From: Phycisphaerae bacterium
GTDB lineage: Bacteria > Planctomycetota > Phycisphaerae > Tepidisphaerales > Tepidisphaeraceae
DNA length: 64,000 nt
Assembly: GCA_030448225.1 (NCBI GenBank)
Contig: JAUJNJ010000007.1
Span: 1 to 64,000 of the forward strand
Direction of reading: 5' to 3'
Under the pieces are notes generated by a model. The model was not told the DNA's origin. It saw only the letters and a list, made by a program, of their open reading frames with translations, and made no database searches. The translations under genes were made by a program, and so were the position numbers. Position 1 is the stretch's first letter. Each line of letters begins with the position of its first letter. Below, piece by piece: positions 17,874 to 58,352 of the stretch.

Positions 17874-18617
17874 TTATAGCTTCGCCGAGTCGAGCGAGTT
17901 GGAGGTGAGGTTGATCCCGCACTCGACCTTCGCGTGGCCGGCCCAGCGGCCGGCGCGGGGGTCTTCGCCGGCGGTGATCGGGCGGGTGCAGCTCATCGGG
18001 TTGCACCCGATCGAGAGGTACCCCTGCTCGAAGAGCGGGTGGTACGGCAGGTCGTGCTTCTTCATGTACGCGTAGATCTCGCGCCCGCCCCAGTTCAGCA
18101 GCGGCGAGACCGCGTGGCAGTTGTACCGCGGCGACCACTCGACGAACGGCACGTTCTGCCGCGTCGACGCCTGGTTCCGCCGGATGCCGCGGAGCCACCC
18201 CTTCGGCGCCAGCTCGCGCATCGCGCGTTCCATCGGCTCGTTCTTGTTCGCGGCGCAGCAGGCGTCGACGTCCTTCCGCCAGGTCGGGTTCTCCTCGCCG
18301 GCCCGGTGGAGGTAGGCGATCGGGTCGTTGCGCGTGCGGTAGGTCCAGACGTTGAGGTCGAAGCGGGCGCGCAGCTGTTCCATGAACGCGTGCGTCTCGG
18401 GGAACAGGTAGCCGGTGTCGACGAAGACGACCTTCACGTCCGGCACGGCCCGCGTCACGAGGTGGATGAGCAAGGCGGATTCGGCGCCGAACGACGAGGT
18501 CATCGCGAGCTCGCCGCCGAACTGCGCCGCGGCCCACGCGATCACCTGCTGCGGGTCGGACCGCTCGAACAGCGGGTTGATCGAGTCGAGGTCGAGTTGT
18601 TCGGCGACGCGGGACAT
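17874..18617 (-). CDS. cysH: Adenylylsulfate/phosphoadenylylsulfate reductase
   Basis: This 247-residue protein begins at the ATG at 18617, preceded by AAGGA. It reduces activated sulfate to sulfite using thioredoxin. The PP-loop substrate site (MTSSFGAESALLIHLV) and the catalytic C-terminal ECGI motif are present. DACCAANK supplies a cysteine pair and SIGCNPMSC a second pair, the signature of the iron-sulfur (APS-type) enzymes. The second pair is spaced C-x4-C instead of the usual C-x2-C. ECGI is followed by N rather than the common H. It lies downstream of a cysC-nuclease-PHP set on the same strand. Confidence 0.88.
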   Translation of the reverse strand: MSRVAEQLDLDSINPLFERSDPQQVIAWAAAQFGGELAMTSSFGAESALLIHLVTRAVPDVKVVFVDTGYLFPETHAFMEQLRARFDLNVWTYRTRNDPIAYLHRAGEENPTWRKDVDACCAANKNEPMERAMRELAPKGWLRGIRRNQASTRQNVPFVEWSPRYNCHAVSPLLNWGGREIYAYMKKHDLPYHPLFEQGYLSIGCNPMSCTRPITAGEDPRAGRWAGHAKVECGINLTSNSLDSAKL

Positions 18618-18655
18618 CGGGTTCCTTGGGAGTCGTCGGGTCAGGGAATCGCAAG

Positions 18656-18744
18656 GGTCAAGGATCAAGAGTCAAGGGTCACAAGCCACGGGCCGGCGAA
18701 GTTCAACGGCAGTTGCATGAGTCTGTGACTCTTGACGCTTGACC
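18656..18744. repeat. Intergenic inverted repeat of GGTCAAG heptamers
   Basis: Arms 18656-18683 and 18724-18744 are imperfect reverse complements built of GTCAAGG/GTCAAGA-like heptamers. They lie between cysH and the PHP gene. The design closely resembles the element lodged in ligA at 12442-12531. Confidence 0.8.
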
Positions 18745-18765
18745 TGTCGGATCATTTCGCCGCGG

Positions 18766-19656
18766 CTACGCGCTCGGCGCTGCCATCCCCGTCTTCCTCG
18801 CCACCAGCGCGTCGAAATACGCCCGCGGCACGCGACGGCCTCGCGCGGTTCCGAGCGGGATGTCCTTCTTGTTCGTCCCGTGGAAATCGCTGCCGCCGGT
18901 CTTCAACAGATTGTAGCGGTCCGCCAAGGCCTCGTACTTCTCGACGAGGGCGGCGTCGTGATCGCTGTGGATGACCTCCAGGCCTTCGAGGCCGAGGTCG
19001 ACGAGGTCCTTCACCACGCGTTCGAGTTGGGCATCGTTCTCCGTGCGGAGTTGGACCGGGTGGGCCAGCACGGGGATGCCGCCGGACGCGCGGATCATCT
19101 CCATTGCCTGCCGCATCGACAGGCGCTCCTTGTCGAAGTAGGCGAGGCCGCCGGGGGCGAGATACTTGTCGAACGCGGCCTTGATCGAGTTCACGTACCC
19201 CTTGCGGAGCAGGATTGACGCGATGTGGGGCCGGCCGATCGGCTTCTTCGAGTCGGCGGCCGTCGCGTGGGCCTCCTGCTCGACCTCCTCCATCGTGATC
19301 GCGACGTTGAGCGACTGGAGCTTGGCGATGATCTTCGGGTTGCGGTCGTCGCGCCCGCCGAGGAGCGTGGTGGTGAGTTCCAGCAGCGTGCGGCTCCGCG
19401 GGTCGACGCCGTAGCCGAGCACGTGCATCGTGCCCGGGTGCGGGTACTCGCAACTGATCTCGATGCCGGCGATGAAGTCGAGGCCGAGGCGCCCCGCCTC
19501 CGCCGCCGCCTCGGCCACCCCGCCGATCGTGTCGTGGTCGGTGAGCGCGAGCGCGGACAGCCCGCTCTCCTTCGCGAGGCGCACCACCTCCGCCGGCGGC
19601 AGCGTGCCGTCGGAGGCGGTGGAATGGCAGTGGAGGTCTACGAAATCACTCATCAT
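18766..19656 (-). CDS. PHP-domain phosphoesterase (TrpH/RNase AM-like)
   Basis: This is an intact 296-residue protein. The metal-binding PHP motifs are complete: DLHCHSTASDGTLPP, ALTDHDTIGG, GIEISCE, PVLAHPVQ and TGGSDFHG. Members of this group act as 3',5'-nucleoside bisphosphate phosphatases and 5'-3' exoribonucleases on RNA ends. One proposed role is removing PAP, the by-product of sulfate activation, which would suit its place next to cysC and cysH. That link is inference. The ATG at 19656 has AGGA upstream and overlaps the preceding gene by 11 bp. Confidence 0.85.
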   Translation of the reverse strand: MMSDFVDLHCHSTASDGTLPPAEVVRLAKESGLSALALTDHDTIGGVAEAAAEAGRLGLDFIAGIEISCEYPHPGTMHVLGYGVDPRSRTLLELTTTLLGGRDDRNPKIIAKLQSLNVAITMEEVEQEAHATAADSKKPIGRPHIASILLRKGYVNSIKAAFDKYLAPGGLAYFDKERLSMRQAMEMIRASGGIPVLAHPVQLRTENDAQLERVVKDLVDLGLEGLEVIHSDHDAALVEKYEALADRYNLLKTGGSDFHGTNKKDIPLGTARGRRVPRAYFDALVARKTGMAAPSA

Positions 19657-20362
19657 TTATTCGATCCTCGCTGCGGTCGGCCTGCTCTGCGTATCCCGGC
19701 TTCTGTGCCCATTGCTCCAAGTGCCGCGCGAACAGCGTCGAGAACTCGTCGTCGAACTGCGCGACGTGCTTCTTCACGTCGGCGAAGCTGATGACTTCCT
19801 CCCCTTCCGCGCCGCCGCTGGGCTGGATGTAGATTCGCCTAAGGACCGGCGGGCAGTCGAGGACTTCCGCCGATGCGAACCACGCGTTCGAGACGGCCCC
19901 GCTTGCCGGTACGCGTACGAGACCCGCCGACGCCAGAAGCTGCAGCAGGTTGGCGTACTTCCGCCGGCTGGCGCTCGCCTTCGCAATAGCGATGACGCCC
20001 TCAATTACCTTCCGCAGCCCGCAGTCGCACGCCAGTCGGAGGTAATCATCCTGCTGATCCCACCGCGAACCTGCATCCGTCTTCAACTCGACGAGATACG
20101 CTTCGCTGCGGTCCTCCGCCAGCAGCAGGTAGTCCGCCTTCACCGATTTCATCCCCTCGCGCTCCTTCCACACGAGCGAGCAGAGAATCGGCAGTTCCGG
20201 AACGATGGTGGGCGACAGCGACCGCCCGACTTTCTCCTCCACGAGGCCCTGCAGGTACAGCGCGAAGAAGGCGTCGGCCCGCCGTTCCAACTGATAGTTC
20301 GGCAGGTGGCGCCACCGGTCGAGGTTCTCGAACAACTTCGCCAGCCGGCTTTGATCGTTCAT
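19646..20362 (-). CDS. Hypothetical protein with a possible PD-(D/E)XK nuclease core
   Basis: This 238-residue soluble protein contains [20 protein letters not shown] followed by [17 protein letters not shown], a short spacer and E-L-K is the pattern of the PD-(D/E)XK fold. It overlaps cysC by 4 bp upstream (ATGA) and the PHP gene by 11 bp downstream, so the three genes are translationally linked. I do not recognise a named family. It could be a metabolic accessory rather than a nuclease. Confidence 0.6.
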
Positions 20363-20985
20363 GTGGCCCCAGGTCGGGTGGTGTATCCGTTCGCATCCAG
20401 GTAGGCCAAGACCTGTCCCGCCGACGCTTCGGCAGAGTTCGTCTCGGTGTCGAGCCGGATCTCCGGCCGCTCGGGCGCCTCGTAAGGGTCGTCGATCCCG
20501 GTGAACCCTCTGATCTCCCCGGCCCGTGCCTTCTTGTACAGCCCCTTCGGGTCGCGGCGTTCGGCCGCTTCGACCGAGGCGTGCACGTACACCTCGACGA
20601 AGTCCCCCGCCGGCATCAGCGCCCGCACGGCGTCGCGGTCGTTGCGGTACGGGCTGATGAAGCTGGCGATGACGATCACGCCGGCGTCGGTGAACAGCTT
20701 GGCCACCTCGCCGATCCGGCGGATGTTCTCCGCCCGGTCCTCGGCGCTGAACCCGAGGTTCTGGTTCAGCCCGTGGCGGACGTTGTCGCCGTCGAGCCGA
20801 TACGCGAGCCGGCCGCGCCCGATCAGCGCCTGCTCGATAAGCACGCCGATCGTGCTCTTGCCGCTCGCCGAAAGCCCGGTGAGCCAGAGCGTGACGCCCC
20901 GCTGTCCGAGGAGACGCTGCCGGTCCTCGCGGGTGACGGCCCCGCCGTGCCAGGTGATGTTTGTCGAGCGACTTTCCTGCATCAT
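20359..20985 (-). CDS. cysC: Adenylylsulfate kinase
   Basis: CysC phosphorylates APS to PAPS. The Walker A motif is [11 protein letters not shown]. The APS-binding segments [20 protein letters not shown] and [15 protein letters not shown] are intact, as is the lid [21 protein letters not shown]. The start is placed at the ATG at 20985 ([15 protein letters not shown]), which matches the family N-terminus. Upstream residues in the frame look non-coding. No ATP sulfurylase gene (cysN/cysD or sat) is in the window. Confidence 0.93.
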
Positions 20986-21038
20986 TGGTCCCGCGGCTTC
21001 TCGACGGCTGTCGCGCTGTCGGTCGCCGACGTGGTGGC

Positions 21039-21368
21039 TCACGAGGGACAATTAAGGAGCTTTCTGCAGCGATCAGCGATCTCCCGCTCAGCGCCCTCTA
21101 GTCGCCGCAGAAGGTCGCCAATCGTATCGAGCGCCGCCGGCCACCGCGTACGTGCGCGGGTGATGAACGCGGCGTTCTCATCCCATCGTCCGTCGTCAAC
21201 GTCCGCGTACCGCGGTTCCTGCAACAGGACTACCGCGATGTTGTTCCGGCTGTCCTCTAACCTGCCCGCTCCGACTTCTCGAGAGATGACAATCGCATTC
21301 ATGCAATGCGCGTCGTCACTCCAGCCAACCGCCCAGTGGCGACGCGGCAGCGATGAACCCGCGGTCAC
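21039..21368 (-). CDS. Hypothetical protein (Ea22-like pattern)
   Basis: This open frame of 109 codons contains [20 protein letters not shown] then [12 protein letters not shown]. That is the repeated pattern (NAxFI-AR-PALL) of small phage-derived Ea22-like proteins often found in bacterial genomes. The likely start is uncertain: the first codon at 21368 or the ATG at 21302. It sits between cysK and cysC and has no evident link to sulfur metabolism. Confidence 0.5.
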
Positions 21369-21425
21369 ATTCGAGTTCCTCGAATTCGTTCTGCGATAAC
21401 GACACGGTTCCTCCGAATGCCCGCG

Positions 21426-22385
21426 TCACTCCTCCTCGAACAGCGGCGTGCTCAGGTAGCGCTCGCCGAAGCTGCACATGATCGTGACGATCAGCTTCCC
21501 CTTGTTCTCCGGGCGCGCGGCGACCTTCGCCGCGGCGGCCATGTTGCCGCCGGAGCTGATGCCGCCGAAGATCCCTTCCTCCTTGGCCAGCCGGCGGCCC
21601 CACTCGAAGGCCTCGTCGTCGCTGACCTGGATCACCTCGTCGACCTGGTCGGTGTGCAGGTTCCCGGGCACGAACCCGGCGCCGATCCCCTGGATCTTGT
21701 GCTTGCCCGGCTTCACCGGCTCGCCCCGCAGCGTCTGCGTGATGACCGGCGACGCGACCGGCTCGACCGCGATCGCCTTGAACTCCGGCTTGCGCGGCTT
21801 GATCACTTCCGACACGCCGGTGAGGCTCCCGCCGGTGCCGACGCCCGACACCATGATGTCGACGCGGCCCTCGGTGTCCTGCCAGATCTCCTCGGCGGTC
21901 GTGCGGCGGTGGATCTCGGGGTTGGCCGGGTTCTGGAACTGCTGGGGCATGTAGCTGTTGGCGTGCTCGGCGAGGATCGACTCGGCCCTGCCGATCGCGC
22001 CGCGCATCCCGTCGGCCGCCGGCGTGAGCACGACCTGCGCCCCCAGCGCCTTGAGGAGCCGGCGGCGCTCGATGCTCATCGACTCGGGCATCGTCAGGAT
22101 CAGCCGGTACCCCTTGGCCGCGCAGACGAACGCCAGCGCGATGCCGGTGTTGCCGCTCGTCGGCTCGACGATGACCGTGTCCTTGTTGATCTTCCCGAGG
22201 CGTTCCCCGGCCTCGATCATCGCCAGGCCGATGCGGTCCTTCACGCTCGCCAGCGGGTTGAAGAACTCGCACTTGGCCAGCACGGTGGCGTGGTCCTTCG
22301 GCACCAGCCGGTTGATGCGCGAGCGGCGTGCCGCCGATCGTCTCGGTGATGTCGTTGAAGATGCGGCCTTGGGGTTTGAGGGCAT
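21426..22385 (-). CDS. cysK: Cysteine synthase A (two compensating frameshifts near the start)
   Basis: CysK makes cysteine from O-acetylserine and sulfide with PLP. The Schiff-base lysine is in [16 protein letters not shown]. The substrate loop [11 protein letters not shown], the PLP phosphate loop [11 protein letters not shown] and the C-terminal [12 protein letters not shown] are all intact. The family N-terminus ([16 protein letters not shown]) is in the adjacent frame between 22370 and 22320, with a one-base shift on each side. The start is the ATG at 22385. CysE at 4.5 kb supplies its acceptor. Confidence 0.92.
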
Positions 22386-22390
22386 GATCG

Positions 22391-22646
22391 TCACTCGTTG
22401 GGTAAGTTGCTGCTTCGAGGAAGCCGCCGATGTCGCCCGCGTAGATGGTGCGAATCGACAAGATCAACGCCGGGTCGACCAATTCCACCTGTCCGGACGG
22501 ATGCTGGTACACGACAGCTTGCGCCCCGCCCGTCCACGTCCGAAAGCTCCGGGTGATGCACGTGCAGTTCCCGACCGTCGGCAAGGATCATGGTGAACGG
22601 CTCGAACAGGCTGCATGAAGAATCGCGCCAACACCGCGGCGGTCAT
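22391..22646 (-). CDS. Small hypothetical protein, paralogue of the next gene (frameshifted)
   Basis: From the ATG at 22646 ([13 protein letters not shown]) the reading changes frame to give [17 protein letters not shown], then again to [20 protein letters not shown] and LILSIRTIY. It ends near the TGA at 22391, about one codon before cysK. The pattern PF-x-PF, then ADGREL, then a beta strand is shared with the neighbour at 22588-22896, so they are paralogues. I know such short proteins from planctomycete genomes but know no function for them. Confidence 0.5.
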
Positions 22647-22896
22647 GCCGCCCCGCTTTCGTATCGGGTTCACCACCGAGGATCGGCCGATCGGCCACGA
22701 ACTGCACCGCCCGGATCTTGCCGACCGTGATGTGTTCCAATCGCTCGAGCGACGAGTGCGTCACGAACCGCTTCGTCGGGGATATCGTCAGGTAACACGC
22801 TTTGTCGACGAGCAGTTCCCGGCCGTCGTCCAACGCCAGGTTGAACGGCCTGAACGGGTCCGCGAGTCGCGCCGCGCGGATTGCCTCGATGTCCAT
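22588..22896 (-). CDS. Small hypothetical protein of the PFRPF-LDDGREL type
   Basis: About 102 residues begin MDIEAIRAARLADPFRPFNL at the ATG at 22896, then ALDDGRELLVDKACYL and ERLEHITVGKIRAVQF. The tail after residue about 75 looks random, and a one-base shift there would end the gene on an ATGA overlap with the paralogue's start at 22646. No domain is recognised. The two paralogues lie between cysK and the JAMM gene. Confidence 0.55.
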   Translation of the reverse strand: MDIEAIRAARLADPFRPFNLALDDGRELLVDKACYLTISPTKRFVTHSSLERLEHITVGKIRAVQFVADRPILGGEPDTKAGRHDRRGVGAILHAACSSRSP

Positions 22897-23057
22897 CGAG
22901 CCTCCCATCTACGTCGTCGTCGTCGTCGCCGCCTGGTCGGCCGCAGAGGACGCGTGCGCGGCCCGGCGGCCATCAGGATCTTAAGCTCGCGCGCCCAACC
23001 GGTACTAGGGCCAACGCGGCGGCACCGGTTCCCGCCGCACGCGTGCCCCGGCTCTGG

Positions 23058-23503
23058 TCACGTTGTGATCAGCTGCGCGTCAAACTGCTCCGTCTGATCG
23101 TTCAGCACCCAACTCGTCATGTCCGCGGGCTCTCCTTGGCGATGGCCACGATCACGTAGCTGTAGAACGGCCACGCGTGGGCGCGGTCGTACTCGCTGGG
23201 GCGGGCGGGGTGGTCGGGGTGGCTGTGGTAGAAGCCGAGCACCACCGCCCCTCGGCCTCGGCGGCCTTCTCGGCCTTCAGTTGCGCGAGCGGGTCGATCG
23301 AGAAGCGGTGGTACTGCTCGTCGGCCTCGAACGCATTCTTCCCCGGCTCCAGCCGCTCGACGATCCGGCGCGCGACGCCGGCGTCGATCACGTCGCGCCC
23401 CGACAAGGATGCCGCAGCACTCGTTCGGGTAGGCGGCCGCGCCTTCGGCTTCAATCTGTCGGCGGAGGTTCGCGGGGAGAGTTATTGCGGGTGGAACGCT
23501 CAT
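23058..23503 (-). CDS. JAMM/M67 metalloprotease, Mec-like (frameshifted)
   Basis: The ATG at 23503 starts MSVPPAITLPANLRRQIEAE and YPNECCGILVG, the usual opening of bacterial JAB/MPN+ proteins. The zinc motif H-x-H-x7-S-x2-D is intact in YHSHPDHPARPSEYD. Two frame changes are needed, near 23400 and near 23120. The second restores a C-terminus reading MTSWVLNDQTEQFDAQLITT. Such enzymes cleave after a C-terminal Gly-Gly; Mycobacterium Mec releases cysteine from the sulfur carrier CysO. Its closeness to cysK and to an E1-like gene fits that role. No CysO/ThiS-like carrier was seen. Confidence 0.78.
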
Positions 23504-23531
23504 CGGTGCGAAAGCCGAAATTTGTAACCGG

Positions 23532-24202
23532 TCACGCCGGCTCAATCTTCTTCAGGGAAACGGACAACTCGTACTCGAAGAGCGAAACGTTGGGGAGCCC
23601 GGAGCACGCGAGGCGGAGATCGTCCGACATCTCCCGACTGATGATGATGCCACGCACCTTCTGGCCAGGTCGGCCTGGTTCTTTTGTATCCAGCCGACGT
23701 AACGCAGCAGTTGGCCCACGACCCGGTCGTAGCCGCGAGAGACCTTCAACTCGATCACGACGTAATCATTCGCCTTGTCGACGGCCAAGATATCGATGTA
23801 CCGCCCGCGCGGGAAACTCCACACCGTTCACGTCCTCGTCCTCGTCCTCGTACAGCTTCAGCCCCGGCTCGACGAGGTGAAGGTTCCCGCGAGATAATCG
23901 CGCAGGTCGTGCTCGTACGCGAACTCGGTTGTAGAGACACCGCCCGCGTCCGTCACGTCGTCAGCGGCGGCGGCAATCGGAGCGGCAGAAGTCTGCTTGG
24001 TGATCGGAGCCGGATCGTTCAACGGGTCGTAGAGCCGGAACCGCCCCGGATCGATCTGAAAGAACACGTCGTCGTCGCCGGGCTTCGGTCGGTAGTGGGT
24101 CCGCGATGGCGCATTGACCGAGAGCCGCAGGAGGTGGGCGTTGATCGTGCCGACCTTGATCTTCAATCCATCGCGCGGGACATGCCCCGGGTGAAACCAT
24201 GT
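23532..24202 (-). CDS. NucS/DUF91-like endonuclease with N-terminal helical domain (frameshifted)
   Basis: The C-terminal part is clear: GRYIDILAVDKANDYVVIEL then KVSRGYDRVVGQLLRYVGWI, with D-x14-E-L-K as the nuclease active-site pattern of NucS/DUF91 proteins. After a shift near 23665 it continues VRGIIISREMSDDLRLACSG and LPNVSLFEYELSVSLKKIEP to TGA 23532. The N-terminal part (KIKVGTINAHLLRLSVNAPS, then PGDDDVFFQIDPGRFRLYDP) looks like a DNA-binding winged-helix-type domain found on modification- or restriction-associated proteins. The exact start is uncertain, because the first 40 bases enter the repeat mosaic. It could be a repair or restriction nuclease. Confidence 0.68.
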
Positions 24203-24813
24203 CCTTCATCCGTGGACTGGCTTCTCGTAGATTGGCCGGGCCTCTCACTCTCGCGTGGATGAAGAAACGCAGCTCACTACGGCAGACGTCCGCCTCGCTG
24301 CTCGACATGCTTCCGACGTACTTCGCCGCCGGTCGATTCGACGAAGCTCCCGCGGCGGAGACCATGTCCTTCATCAACGCGTGGACTGGCTGCGCGTCTG
24401 CCCGGGCACGAGGGCCGTCGCCATGTGCTTCATCCTGGCATCGCGGGCTGACGCACTGGATGGCGGGGTTGAGTTCCTTCAGCCGGCGTGCCCATGATGA
24501 AGAAACGCGACCACTGAGCACGCCAGTTCGCGTCGTTGTTGCCAGACGTCCGCCTCGCTGCTCGACTGTCGCCAGAAGTTCTGCTTTCGCTCGGCGCTTG
24601 GCGTTGCGGGGGAGGGCGAGTCACTTCGTTCGCCGAGTCGCGAAAATACGGTGACGACGACGCCCTTCACGCTGCCGCCGGGGTTGACTCGGCTGGCGAA
24701 GACCTCGACCCGGCGACGCGCATGGCGGCGGACGCGGAGGAGACGCCGACGAGCAAGTTTCCGTTCGTGTTGGCACCGTCAAGTTTCCGTTCGTGTTGGC
24801 AGATCGTCCACCC

Positions 24814-25539
24814 CTAAGCCCCCTCGCGGGCGAGCGCACGATGAGCCGCCCATCGGCGGTGTCGAGGTCTGGCGGATCGTTCAGGCGGCATCGAACTCGG
24901 CACCTGCACCTGACCTCGATGCCGGCGTCCGCCACGTGCGCGTCGTAGATGCCCGGCACGGGCGGCCGTCGCCATGTGCTTCATCAGCGACCTCGAGCGG
25001 CCCGCCGTGGAGCGGACGCCGTCGCCCACGGCTGCATGCTGACGCACTGGATGGCGGCCCGCCGTGTCGCACGTCGGCAGGTCACTCGCGGCGGGCGGAT
25101 CAGCAGCGGCGGGTGACGCCCATGAACCCGCCCTTCGTGCCGCTCGTGCCGAGGCCGGCGACGTCGTTCAGGTGCGTAGCGCGTCTCGACGTTGTCGGTG
25201 CCGTCGTCGACGCGGTCATCCCGGCCACGCCCAGCGACTCGATGTTCGGAATGCACGTGGACGGTCTGTGACGCCGCCGTTCAGACGCTTAGTCGATTCG
25301 TAGCCACGCTTTCGGCAGTTCGTCCTCGTCGAACGACCTGGCGTTGAAGGTTTGTACTGGTCGCGGTCGACGAGGCGCGTTCGGCCGACGCCCGCGTAGG
25401 CGATGCCGGTTGTTCCGCGATCGTGCCGCCGAGCGCGCCCGCGACGTGAGCAGCACGCGGCGTTCGCCGTCGATTCGGTCTTGACCCGCGCCGCCGATCT
25501 GCGGCAAAGGGTCTGGCGGTGGTATCGATCGGCTGACAC
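24814..25539 (-). pseudogene. ThiF/MoeB/HesA-type E1 activating enzyme, badly degraded or mis-sequenced
   Basis: From a GTG at 25539, with GGAGAGG eight bases upstream, the minus strand reads SADRYHRQTL. Then, in changing frames, come LPQIGGAGQDRIDGERRVLL, AGALGGTIAEQ, YAGVGRTRLVDRD, TNLQRQV and DDGTDNVETRY. This order is that of the adenylation domain of ThiF-like E1 enzymes, which adenylate the C-terminal glycine of a sulfur carrier. Possible later matches (LND, and PTCDTAG near 25075) fade into the repeat mosaic. More than six shifts are required, so this is either a decayed gene or a poorly sequenced one. With JAMM and CysK it would complete a carrier-based cysteine pathway. Confidence 0.55.
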
Positions 25540-25713
25540 GCGCGCGACCTCTCCGGCAGTAAGCAGTACGTCTCCGTTCGGGCCCGCGCGCCGGCGTGTT
25601 GCCGCGAGCGGTCGCCGGCCGGCCGACAACCGGAAATCCGCCTAAAACGTTGCGCGGTGACCTTGCGGGCGGGTGCGACGCGGACTATAGTAGCGGCTTC
25701 AGCGAGGAAAAGT

Positions 25714-26100
25714 ATGCCCGTCGACACCGACCAGATCATGCAGGAGGCCGAGGCGGTGAGTTCGAGGTCTGGCGGAGCTCGGCCAGCTCGTCGCCCAGCA
25801 CCCGGCCGTCGCCCGCTACAAGGAGGCGCAGCGGGCGGTCGAGAGCGACCCCGAAGCCGGCCGGATGATGGCCGAGTTCAACCATCAGATGGACGCCTTC
25901 GAGTCACTCGCGGCCGGATGCAGGCGGGGATCAACCCGACCGACGCCCAGCGCCACGCCGGGGATCGAGTCGCTGCAGAACCGCATCGTCTCGCACCTGA
26001 AGATCAAGGCGGCTTTGAAGGCGTCGTCCTCGTCGCAGGTCGAGTTCGTCGACCTGCTCCGCCGGGTCACGCAGACGATCGGGCATTCGGTCTTGCCCGA
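25714..26100 (+). CDS. YlbF/YmcA-family regulator (frameshifted, with insertion)
   Basis: The ATG at 25714 has GAGGAAAAG upstream. It begins MPVDTDQIMQEAE; in the next frames follow LGQLVAQHPAVARYKEAQRA, VESDPEAGRMMAEFNHQMDA, ESLQNRIVSHLKIKAALK and QVEFVDLLRRVTQTIG. This is the all-helical Com_YlbF fold; in Bacillus it supports RNase Y-dependent mRNA processing. About 22 bases with the shared TCGAGGTCTGGCGGA sequence (25761-25775) interrupt the first helix. The 3' end near 26100 runs into another repeat copy and is uncertain. Confidence 0.65.
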
Positions 26101-26321
26101 TCTGCGGCAAAGGGTCTGCCGACATCGCCCGCGCGCCGCCGCGGGCGGCGTCGGTGCGGCGGTGCCGGCGCGCCTCGCGCGGACAACGGCCGATCATGTG
26201 AGGCCGCGGCTCGCGGGGTGCCCGTCGTACCGACCAGATCCCGCAACTCCGCCGCCGGTTCGCCGGGTCGCGCTCGGTTCGGAACATCTCGTCGTCCCGC
26301 AGGATCGAGTCGCTTCGCGCC

Positions 26322-26745
26322 GTGGCCCACTGGCTCCTGAAGACCGACGATCCCGACACCTGCTCAGATCATGGGACGACCTGTCCCGCGACAAGTCCAC
26401 CGTCTGGGACGGCGTCGCCAACGCGCTGGCCCTGAAGCACATCCGCACGATGAAGAAGGTGACACCGCCCTCGTCTACCACACGGGCGACGAGCGGGCGG
26501 CCGTCGGCATCGCCGAGGTGAAGACGAACCCGTACCCCGATCCGGCGGGCGCCGACGAGAAGCTCGTCGTGTTCGACCTGAAGCCGAAGAAGAAGCTGCC
26601 GCGGCCCGTGACGCTCGCCGACATCAAGGCCGACGCGGCGTTCGCCGGCTGGGACTTTCTCCGCATCGGCCGGCTCAGCGTCGTGCCGGTGCCCGAGCCG
26701 GTGTGGGCGCGCATCCTCGAACTCGCGGGTGACAAGAACCGGTAG
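26322..26745 (+). CDS. EVE-domain protein (frameshifted near the start)
   Basis: From a GTG at 26322 the reading is VAHWLLKTD, then after short shifts SWDDLSRDKSTVWDGVANAL, HIRTMKKGDTALVYHTGDER, AAVGIAEVKTNPYPDPAGAD and VARILEL-like ends at 26745. These are the conserved positions of the EVE/ThyN1 fold: the initial HWLLKT, VWDGV and the aromatic cage. EVE domains of the PUA superfamily bind modified bases in RNA or DNA and occur both in housekeeping proteins and in modification-dependent restriction enzymes. Here it stands alone at about 140 residues, the stand-alone form. The 220 bases before it (26101-26321) are unexplained. Confidence 0.82.
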
Positions 26746-26881
26746 CGACGAGAACATCAAATGACGCGGATCGGTGATCCGTTTTAGCCGCCGCTCGCAG
26801 AGCGGGCCTGGATCAGAGACGAGCGAGAGGCAGCCGATCTCGCTCCGGAACCGTCGGCCCGCTTCCCGCAAGGAACCACCC

Positions 26882-27454
26882 ATGACGCGATCGAACCTCG
26901 ACCCGCTCGACCCGCAAATCGCCGCCGCCGCCGACAGTTCGCCCACCGGGCCGCCGACGACCGCGAGGAGATCTACTTCGAAGGCTCGCCCCTGATCCGC
27001 GGCGAGTTGGGGAAGATGATCACCGCCGTCGTGATCGGCCTGGCATTCATCCTGGCGGTCATCTACTGGTACCTGAAGGACCAGACCGACTGGTGGCCTG
27101 GTGGGTGAACCTCACGCTCGTCGTGATCGGGCTGCTCGTGATCCTGATCCCGTTCATCCTGGTCAGGCGGTGCGGTACCGCATCAGCAACTACCGGATCG
27201 ACTACGAGCCGCGGCCTGATGAGCAAGTCGATCGACACGCTCGAACTGTGGCACGTCGACGACATCAAGTTCCACCAGAGCTTCTTCGACCGCATGTTCG
27301 GCGTCGGCGACATCACCGTCATCTCGCACGACGACACCACTCCCTGCTCAAGCTCAACGGCCTCCCCAAGCCCCGCCCGCTGTTCGAGAACCTCAAGCAG
27401 CGCGTGATCGCCGTGAAGCGGCAGCGCGGCGTGATCAAGATGGATGTGGGGTGA
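26882..27454 (+). CDS. Membrane protein with bacterial PH (DUF304/bPH2-like) domain (frameshifted)
   Basis: The ATG at 26882 follows AAGGAACCACCC. After an Asp/Ala-rich start come FEGSPLIRGELGKM, two hydrophobic helices (ITAVVIGLAFILAVIYWYL and LTLVVIGLLVILIPFILV), and then a YdbT-like PH domain: YRISNYRIDYE, SIDTLELWHVDDIKFHQSFF, RMFGVGDITVISHD, ending PRPLFENLKQRVIAVKRQRG. The fold is typical of proteins with two membrane helices and a cytoplasmic PH-like beta sandwich. Four one-base shifts are needed. The function is unknown. Confidence 0.75.
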
Positions 27455-28338: not shown

Positions 28339-28363
28339 CCCCCGTTGACCTTCGCACGATGCG

Positions 28364-58187: not shown

Positions 58188-58194
58188 CTTCGAA

Positions 58195-58267
58195 TAGCAG
58201 CGACAGGACTCGAACCTGTGACCCGGGGCTTATGAATCCCCTGCTCTGCCAACTGAGCTACGCTGCC
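58195..58267 (-). tRNA. tRNA with CAT anticodon (elongator Met or Ile2 type)
   Basis: The 73-base cloverleaf has acceptor arms GGCAGCG and CGCTGCT (first pair G-U), D arm GCTC/GAGC, anticodon stem GGGG/CCCC with loop TTCATAA, and T arm ACAGG/CCTGT around TTCGAGT. The anticodon is CAT. The closing pair A31-G39 of the stem is a mismatch. The first pair is G-U rather than an unpaired C, so it is not an initiator tRNA. CCA is not encoded. Whether it is tRNA-Met or tRNA-Ile with a modified C34 cannot be told without identity analysis. Confidence 0.93.
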
Positions 58268-58352
58268 AACTCGGCGTGCAAGATATCAATCTTACGCCGG
58301 TTGGCAAGACAAGTTTGATCCAGCCGGGCCGGCGCGGCGAGATCGGGCGGGG

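Follow-up and report, generated by a model that had tools for sequence, protein, structure and literature searches.

The question raised by this locus is whether a dense patchwork of short paired repeats is a real feature of the organism that carries it. The window, by which we mean the whole stretch of 64,000 nucleotides analysed (contig JAUJNJ010000007.1 of the Phycisphaerae bacterium assembly GCA_030448225.1), had first been described from its letters only. This sequence-only reading reported a mosaic of direct repeats at 24196..26118, in a neighbourhood of JAMM, E1, nuclease and ylbF genes, and offered three causes: repeated strand slippage, a decayed mobile or recombination cassette, and an assembly that had stitched overlapping reads. 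Of these, the present data support the last and speak against the first two.

The exact direct pairs of 13–24 nt described there are present in the window, each within one base of its reported place. The tandem pair of 22 nt has its copies at 24754-24775 and 24780-24801, the copy reported inside ylbF is a 15-mer (25762-25776) whose twin starts at 24862, and the copy in E1 that recurs after ylbF is a 22-mer at 25494-25515 and 26097-26118. Between 24150 and 26330, 17 maximal exact direct pairs of at least 11 nt were found, with 10 of at least 13 nt, whereas 200 dinucleotide shuffles of the same interval gave a mean of 2.5 and a maximum of nine pairs of at least 11 nt. When exact pairs of at least 13 nt lying within 2.5 kb were binned by their first copy, with low-complexity matches dropped, the 2-kb bin from 24000 held 12 of the 40 pairs in the window, and every other bin held three or fewer. 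A short tandem array of 16-18-bp units was also observed, at 530-609.

The arrangement of the pairs follows a regular pattern. Fifteen of the 17 fall in one colinear chain, with spacings of, in order, 165, 169, 238, 260, 551, 591, 900, 840, 822, 704, 612, 603, 545, 503, and 340 bp, so that the spacing rises from 165 at 24196 to a peak of 900 at 24862 and then falls to 340 at 25962. The longest chain was six pairs in the 200 shuffles and 10 pairs in 53 other stretches of the window, against the 15 observed here; in the best three of those 53 (repeat-rich stretches at 28340, 44690, and 30520) the spacing was scattered, without a smooth trend. The two pairs off the chain are 24754/24780 (22 nt, spaced 26 bp) and 24997/25054 (13 nt, spaced 57 bp). 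Simple strand slippage makes adjacent tandem copies, not a spacing that rises to 900 bp and then falls, and only the first of these two pairs, perhaps also the second, looks slippage-like. In six alignments of twin copies, there were 113, 66, 22, 39, 21, and 53 matches, 7, 1, 0, 1, 1, and 1 mismatches, and 100, 42, 5, 12, 1, and 45 gap columns, respectively; the twins thus differ mainly by gaps and by few substitutions, in alignments whose cheap gaps favour gaps over mismatches.

Comparison with relatives, a check that had been proposed together with the original description, was carried out and found uninterrupted genes of the expected length at this locus, the very outcome that had been named there as speaking against a real mosaic. 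A search with the EVE gene led to two Phycisphaerae/Phycisphaerales MAG loci, L001 and L002. The order in L002 is a cysteine synthase, a rhodanese, a JAMM protein, a second cysteine synthase (cysM2, a label of this analysis), and a ThiF-family E1 (Pfam), followed on the opposite strand by YlbF, EVE, and PH-domain genes. The first cysteine synthase was assigned to TIGR01139 (cysK) and the second to the TIGR01136 cysKM subfamily, both above cut-off, and the YlbF orthologue gave the family name Com_YlbF. Among 26 genomes of the taxonomic order searched with E1, 25 had a match at 1e-40, comprising 22 that passed the profile cut (43% identity over >70% of the length) and three with weaker best matches. 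In 20 of the 22 relatives passing this cut, ylbF adjoins E1, and in 10 of the 22 the order JAMM-cysM2-E1-ylbF was found within loci of ~4 kb, the JAMM gene being clipped by the locus edge in two. The EVE protein search covered 298 genomes of the class and matched 40, with a best identity of 73% and no close species among the matches listed; the best identity for the JAMM protein was 62% among the best 120 of 6,143 matches, and a near-identity search of plasmids gave no match.

The genes bordering the disturbed stretch on both sides agree with those of the relatives: the cysteine synthase at 21426-22394 and the JAMM gene on the left, and EVE and PH genes beyond the stretch. The JAMM/Prok-JAB metalloprotease (23067..23485, minus strand, by profile alignment) is single-copy with three frameshifts, and the ORF at 23117-23545 matches Pfam Prok-JAB with E=2.8e-20. 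It is followed by a NucS_C/DUF7669 endonuclease gene (23538..24163, minus strand), identified by its NucS_C match and by ordered profile pieces, whose homologues carry PF01939 and PF24706; the gene is colinear from its end to residue 43, where the scramble begins. On the right, the EVE-domain gene (26319..26727, plus strand) is likewise single-copy, with two frameshifts, with a Pfam EVE match of E=6.8e-22 for the ORF at 26371-26745. Given these shared flanks, one would expect to find the nuclease N-terminus, cysM2, E1, and ylbF in the stretch between them. The gene names JAMM, E1, nuclease, and ylbF had been chosen correctly, and what had been missed was the cysteine synthase between the nuclease and E1.

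Several observations concern the neighbourhood itself. The nuclease gene (23538-24235 in all) lies between JAMM and cysM2 in the window, whereas JAMM directly adjoins cysM2 in 10 relatives; a search for the nuclease in 26 genomes of the taxonomic order returned nothing, a result that shows little, with a 90-aa fragment as the query and no positive control. A Tepidisphaeraceae JAMM protein (P0098) and nuclease (P0143) each come from a 142,886-bp contig, and the two may share one contig elsewhere. A sulfur assimilation cluster occupies 17874-22394, with genes for PAPS reductase (17874-18668), APS kinase (20359-21051), and cysteine synthase (21426-22394), so that JAMM, the cysteine synthases, and E1 stand near the APS kinase and PAPS reductase genes. 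A JAMM protease, a cysteine synthase, and an E1 thus occur together here, and in the order JAMM-cysM2-E1 in 10 of the 22 relatives. Mec+ is a JAMM protein. With its JAMM, cysteine synthases, and E1, the neighbourhood resembles the CysO/CysM/Mec+/MoeZ route of Mycobacterium tuberculosis, whose members have roles in sulfur-carrier cysteine synthesis according to a passage of PMC3227635; in that passage MoeZR has a rhodanese-like domain, whereas the rhodanese of L002 is a separate gene.

To read the disturbed stretch, protein profiles of the relatives were aligned to the window, with jumps between any two profile positions allowed at a cost, and pieces of at least 14 bits were retained (13 for ylbF, one piece of which scored 13.6); both thresholds were set after a first look, and many weaker pieces were dropped ahead of counting. 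On the minus strand of 24196-26118, 20 pieces of at least 14 bits were obtained, of ~7-24 residues each and up to 46 bits, whereas none reached 14 bits on the other strand. Twenty shuffles of the stretch gave zero or one such piece each (five in all, 14-17 bits), which leaves room for chance in one or two of the weakest pieces; a single piece (16.1 bits) came from 14 control strand-stretches elsewhere in the window. In three control relatives (L002, L009, and L012), E1 came back whole, as one piece of 861-889 bits; cysM2 was likewise whole in L009 and L012 (988-1021 bits) and split into two adjacent pieces in L002. Together with five ylbF pieces, 25 pieces of cysM2, E1, and ylbF were placed in 24.2-26.3 kb, and those above threshold cover 129 of 324 cysM2 and 118 of 341 E1 profile columns.

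From left to right, the pieces belong to two threads, one leading and one lagging. Mapping with 120 nuclease homologues placed the nuclease N-terminus twice on the minus strand: in the leading thread at 24192..24235 (residues 12-18, 13.2 bits, and 2-9, 19.1 bits) and in the lagging thread at 24354..24389 (residues 7-19, 27.1 bits). Between these copies, at 24283..24306, lies the C-terminal end of cysM2 in the leading thread (minus strand), placed only by its exact 24-mer twin at 24543-24566. Profile pieces of cysM2, again on the minus strand, then continue with residues 234-224, 211-194, and 163-156 in the leading thread (24401..24540), the C-terminus 323-312 in the lagging thread (24542..24577), and an alternation of 113-100 (leading), 304-288 (lagging), 53-47 (leading), and 282-265 (lagging) at 24581..24756. 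Next come the two 22-nt copies at 24754..24801, an exact pair off the chain that two threads leave unexplained. The interval 24203-24813, in which no gene had been thought readable, therefore contains, on the minus strand, parts of the nuclease N-terminus and fragments of a cysteine synthase.

Further to the right, profile pieces on the minus strand show E1/ThiF residues 322-300 of the leading thread (24837..24896), cysM2 residues 247-224 and 214-206 of the lagging thread (24912..25055), E1 188-174 (leading, 25057..25101), cysM2 199-186 (lagging, 25106..25156), and five gapped pieces of E1 138-4 (leading, 25157..25530). The ylbF (Com_YlbF) pieces, residues 1-107, then follow in order on the plus strand at 25714..26080 in the leading thread, with small foreign inserts; the 15-nt exact twin of 24862-24876 at 25762..25776 belongs to the lagging thread. 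At the end of ylbF, the E1 N-terminus occurs again (residues 18-8, 26090..26121, minus strand, lagging). A probable second partial pass over ylbF (26220..26315, plus strand), suggested by the pairs 25726/26229 and 25962/26302 and by cheap-gap alignments, is where the lagging thread rejoins before EVE. The disturbance originally placed at 24196..26118 is thus present and seems to extend further, from ~24164 to 26315, both ends being estimates.

When the 25 pieces were arranged by native gene order, in L002 coordinates, they formed exactly two rising series that alternate with six descents, which means at least 11 switches between the series; among 100,000 random orders, none needed three or fewer rising series and 48 needed four. 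The leading series begins at cysM2 residue 234, passes through the N-terminal half of cysM2, covers E1 from 322 to 4, and then takes in ylbF; the lagging series consists of cysM2 323-312, 304-288, 282-265, 247-224, 214-206, and 199-186, and its last member is the E1 N-terminus found where ylbF ends. The chain of repeat pairs shows the same two passes independently of any relative. The two copies are in step near 24.18 kb, drift apart, and come back together near 26.32 kb. The two series and the rising and falling spacing therefore indicate that the locus was written twice, out of register, and that the two passes rejoin at both ends. One frameshift is shared by both copies of the E1 N-terminus, so that the two cannot count as entirely independent readings; a systematic error or a common draft could have produced it, and a real copy would show it as well.

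Based on this evidence, the patchwork very probably reflects a local assembly or consensus error over an ordinary locus rather than a true feature of the organism. Two versions of one DNA sequence, both noisy and either reads or a read and a draft, would have been aligned in register at ~24.18 and ~26.32 kb and would have slid out of register between these ends. The consensus would then have taken blocks of a few tens of bases, alternating between the leading and the lagging version; a native piece contributed by both versions would appear as a short repeat pair, and a piece contributed by neither would be lost. Such a misregistered consensus would be expected to give duplicated and lost pieces, few substitutions between twins, and re-registration at both ends. 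We infer that the interleaving arose in software rather than in the DNA, and the exact step just described is proposed on the same footing.

The quality of the contig is consistent with this explanation. Five conserved flanking genes contain 11 frameshifts in 3,121 bp (JAMM 3, EVE 2, PH 4, cysteine synthase 2, and PHP 0), compared with two in the aligned genes and gene pieces of six relatives (21,213 bp); these relatives are themselves part of the profiles and for that reason match them more closely than the window would be expected to. This excess of frameshifts indicates that the contig is an error-rich consensus, and as four of the five flanking genes checked (18796-27448) are affected, gene calls on this contig need care. 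By our reading, several of the EVE and PH frameshift sites break at short runs of G or C, which may recall indel-prone long-read data. A passage of the Homopolish paper (PMC8011154) describes systematic leftovers of polishing as mainly homopolymer indels that shift reading frames. Frameshifts in conserved genes are common to the long-read consensus errors described there and to this contig; the errors of that passage are small indels, whereas here two registers interleave, a pattern for which a brief literature search found no published description among the papers listed. The assembly reading is therefore supported by the two interleaved colinear passes over one locus, the rise and fall of the spacing, the intact orthologues, the missing content, and the frameshift-rich contig.

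Two readings in which the sequence is real deserve weighing, and we regard each as very unlikely. A real tandem duplication, or two diverged copies, later decayed by deletions into paired fragments, would account for the double occurrence of pieces of the same genes and for the direct orientation of the long repeat pairs. Such a duplication predicts copy one wholly before copy two, and therefore one descent instead of the six observed, and a slowly varying spacing instead of 165 to 900 to 340; twins with only 0-7 mismatches in six alignments are also unlike old decay. The other reading, equally improbable to us, is real DNA that arose during replication, either through serial template switching or through slippage repeated many times, back and forth across the 2-kb locus. 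Jumps in both directions could, in principle, interweave copies, and the members of one 22-nt pair are spaced just 26 bp, but at least 11 switches would be required, with both series kept in order and the register restored at the end, and all this in a contig whose flanking conserved genes already show technical-looking frameshifts. It is likewise very unlikely that the interleaved sequence exists in the cell as a bacterial housekeeping locus template-switched into two alternating colinear partial copies that rejoin at their ends.

A decayed mobile element or recombination cassette, which we consider extremely unlikely, would agree with the clustering of short repeats, the lack of an intact gene in 24.2-25.7 kb, and the neighbouring nuclease gene that 10 relatives lack between JAMM and cysM2; the readable pieces, however, come from cysM2, E1, and ylbF, genes of the host itself that keep their customary order and places, a single tRNA gene was found in the window (58194-58268), and the inverted-repeat pairs listed are scattered matches of 12-24 nt. 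The nearest biological likeness is found in the scrambled genes of the ciliate Oxytricha, for which a passage of PMC5940158 describes an odd-even order with pointers; a programmed scrambled gene as in ciliate germline nuclei, in which the repeat pairs would act as pointers for rebuilding, would share the interleaved order and the short sequences present twice, but is extremely unlikely here, since fewer than half of the profile columns of either cysM2 or E1 are recovered (sub-threshold pieces uncounted) and the pieces fail to rebuild the genes, the stretch of ~2,150 bp is shorter than the cysM2-ylbF span of L009 (494-2953), and relatives carry the genes intact.

The preferred explanation, a misregistered consensus over an ordinary locus, probably has no biological import for the organism. 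It carries a caution, in that a consensus of this kind can imitate a repeat-rich recombination cassette, and a pair spacing that rises and falls along a colinear chain over pieces of conserved genes may offer a rapid way to spot artefacts of this sort when contigs are noisy.
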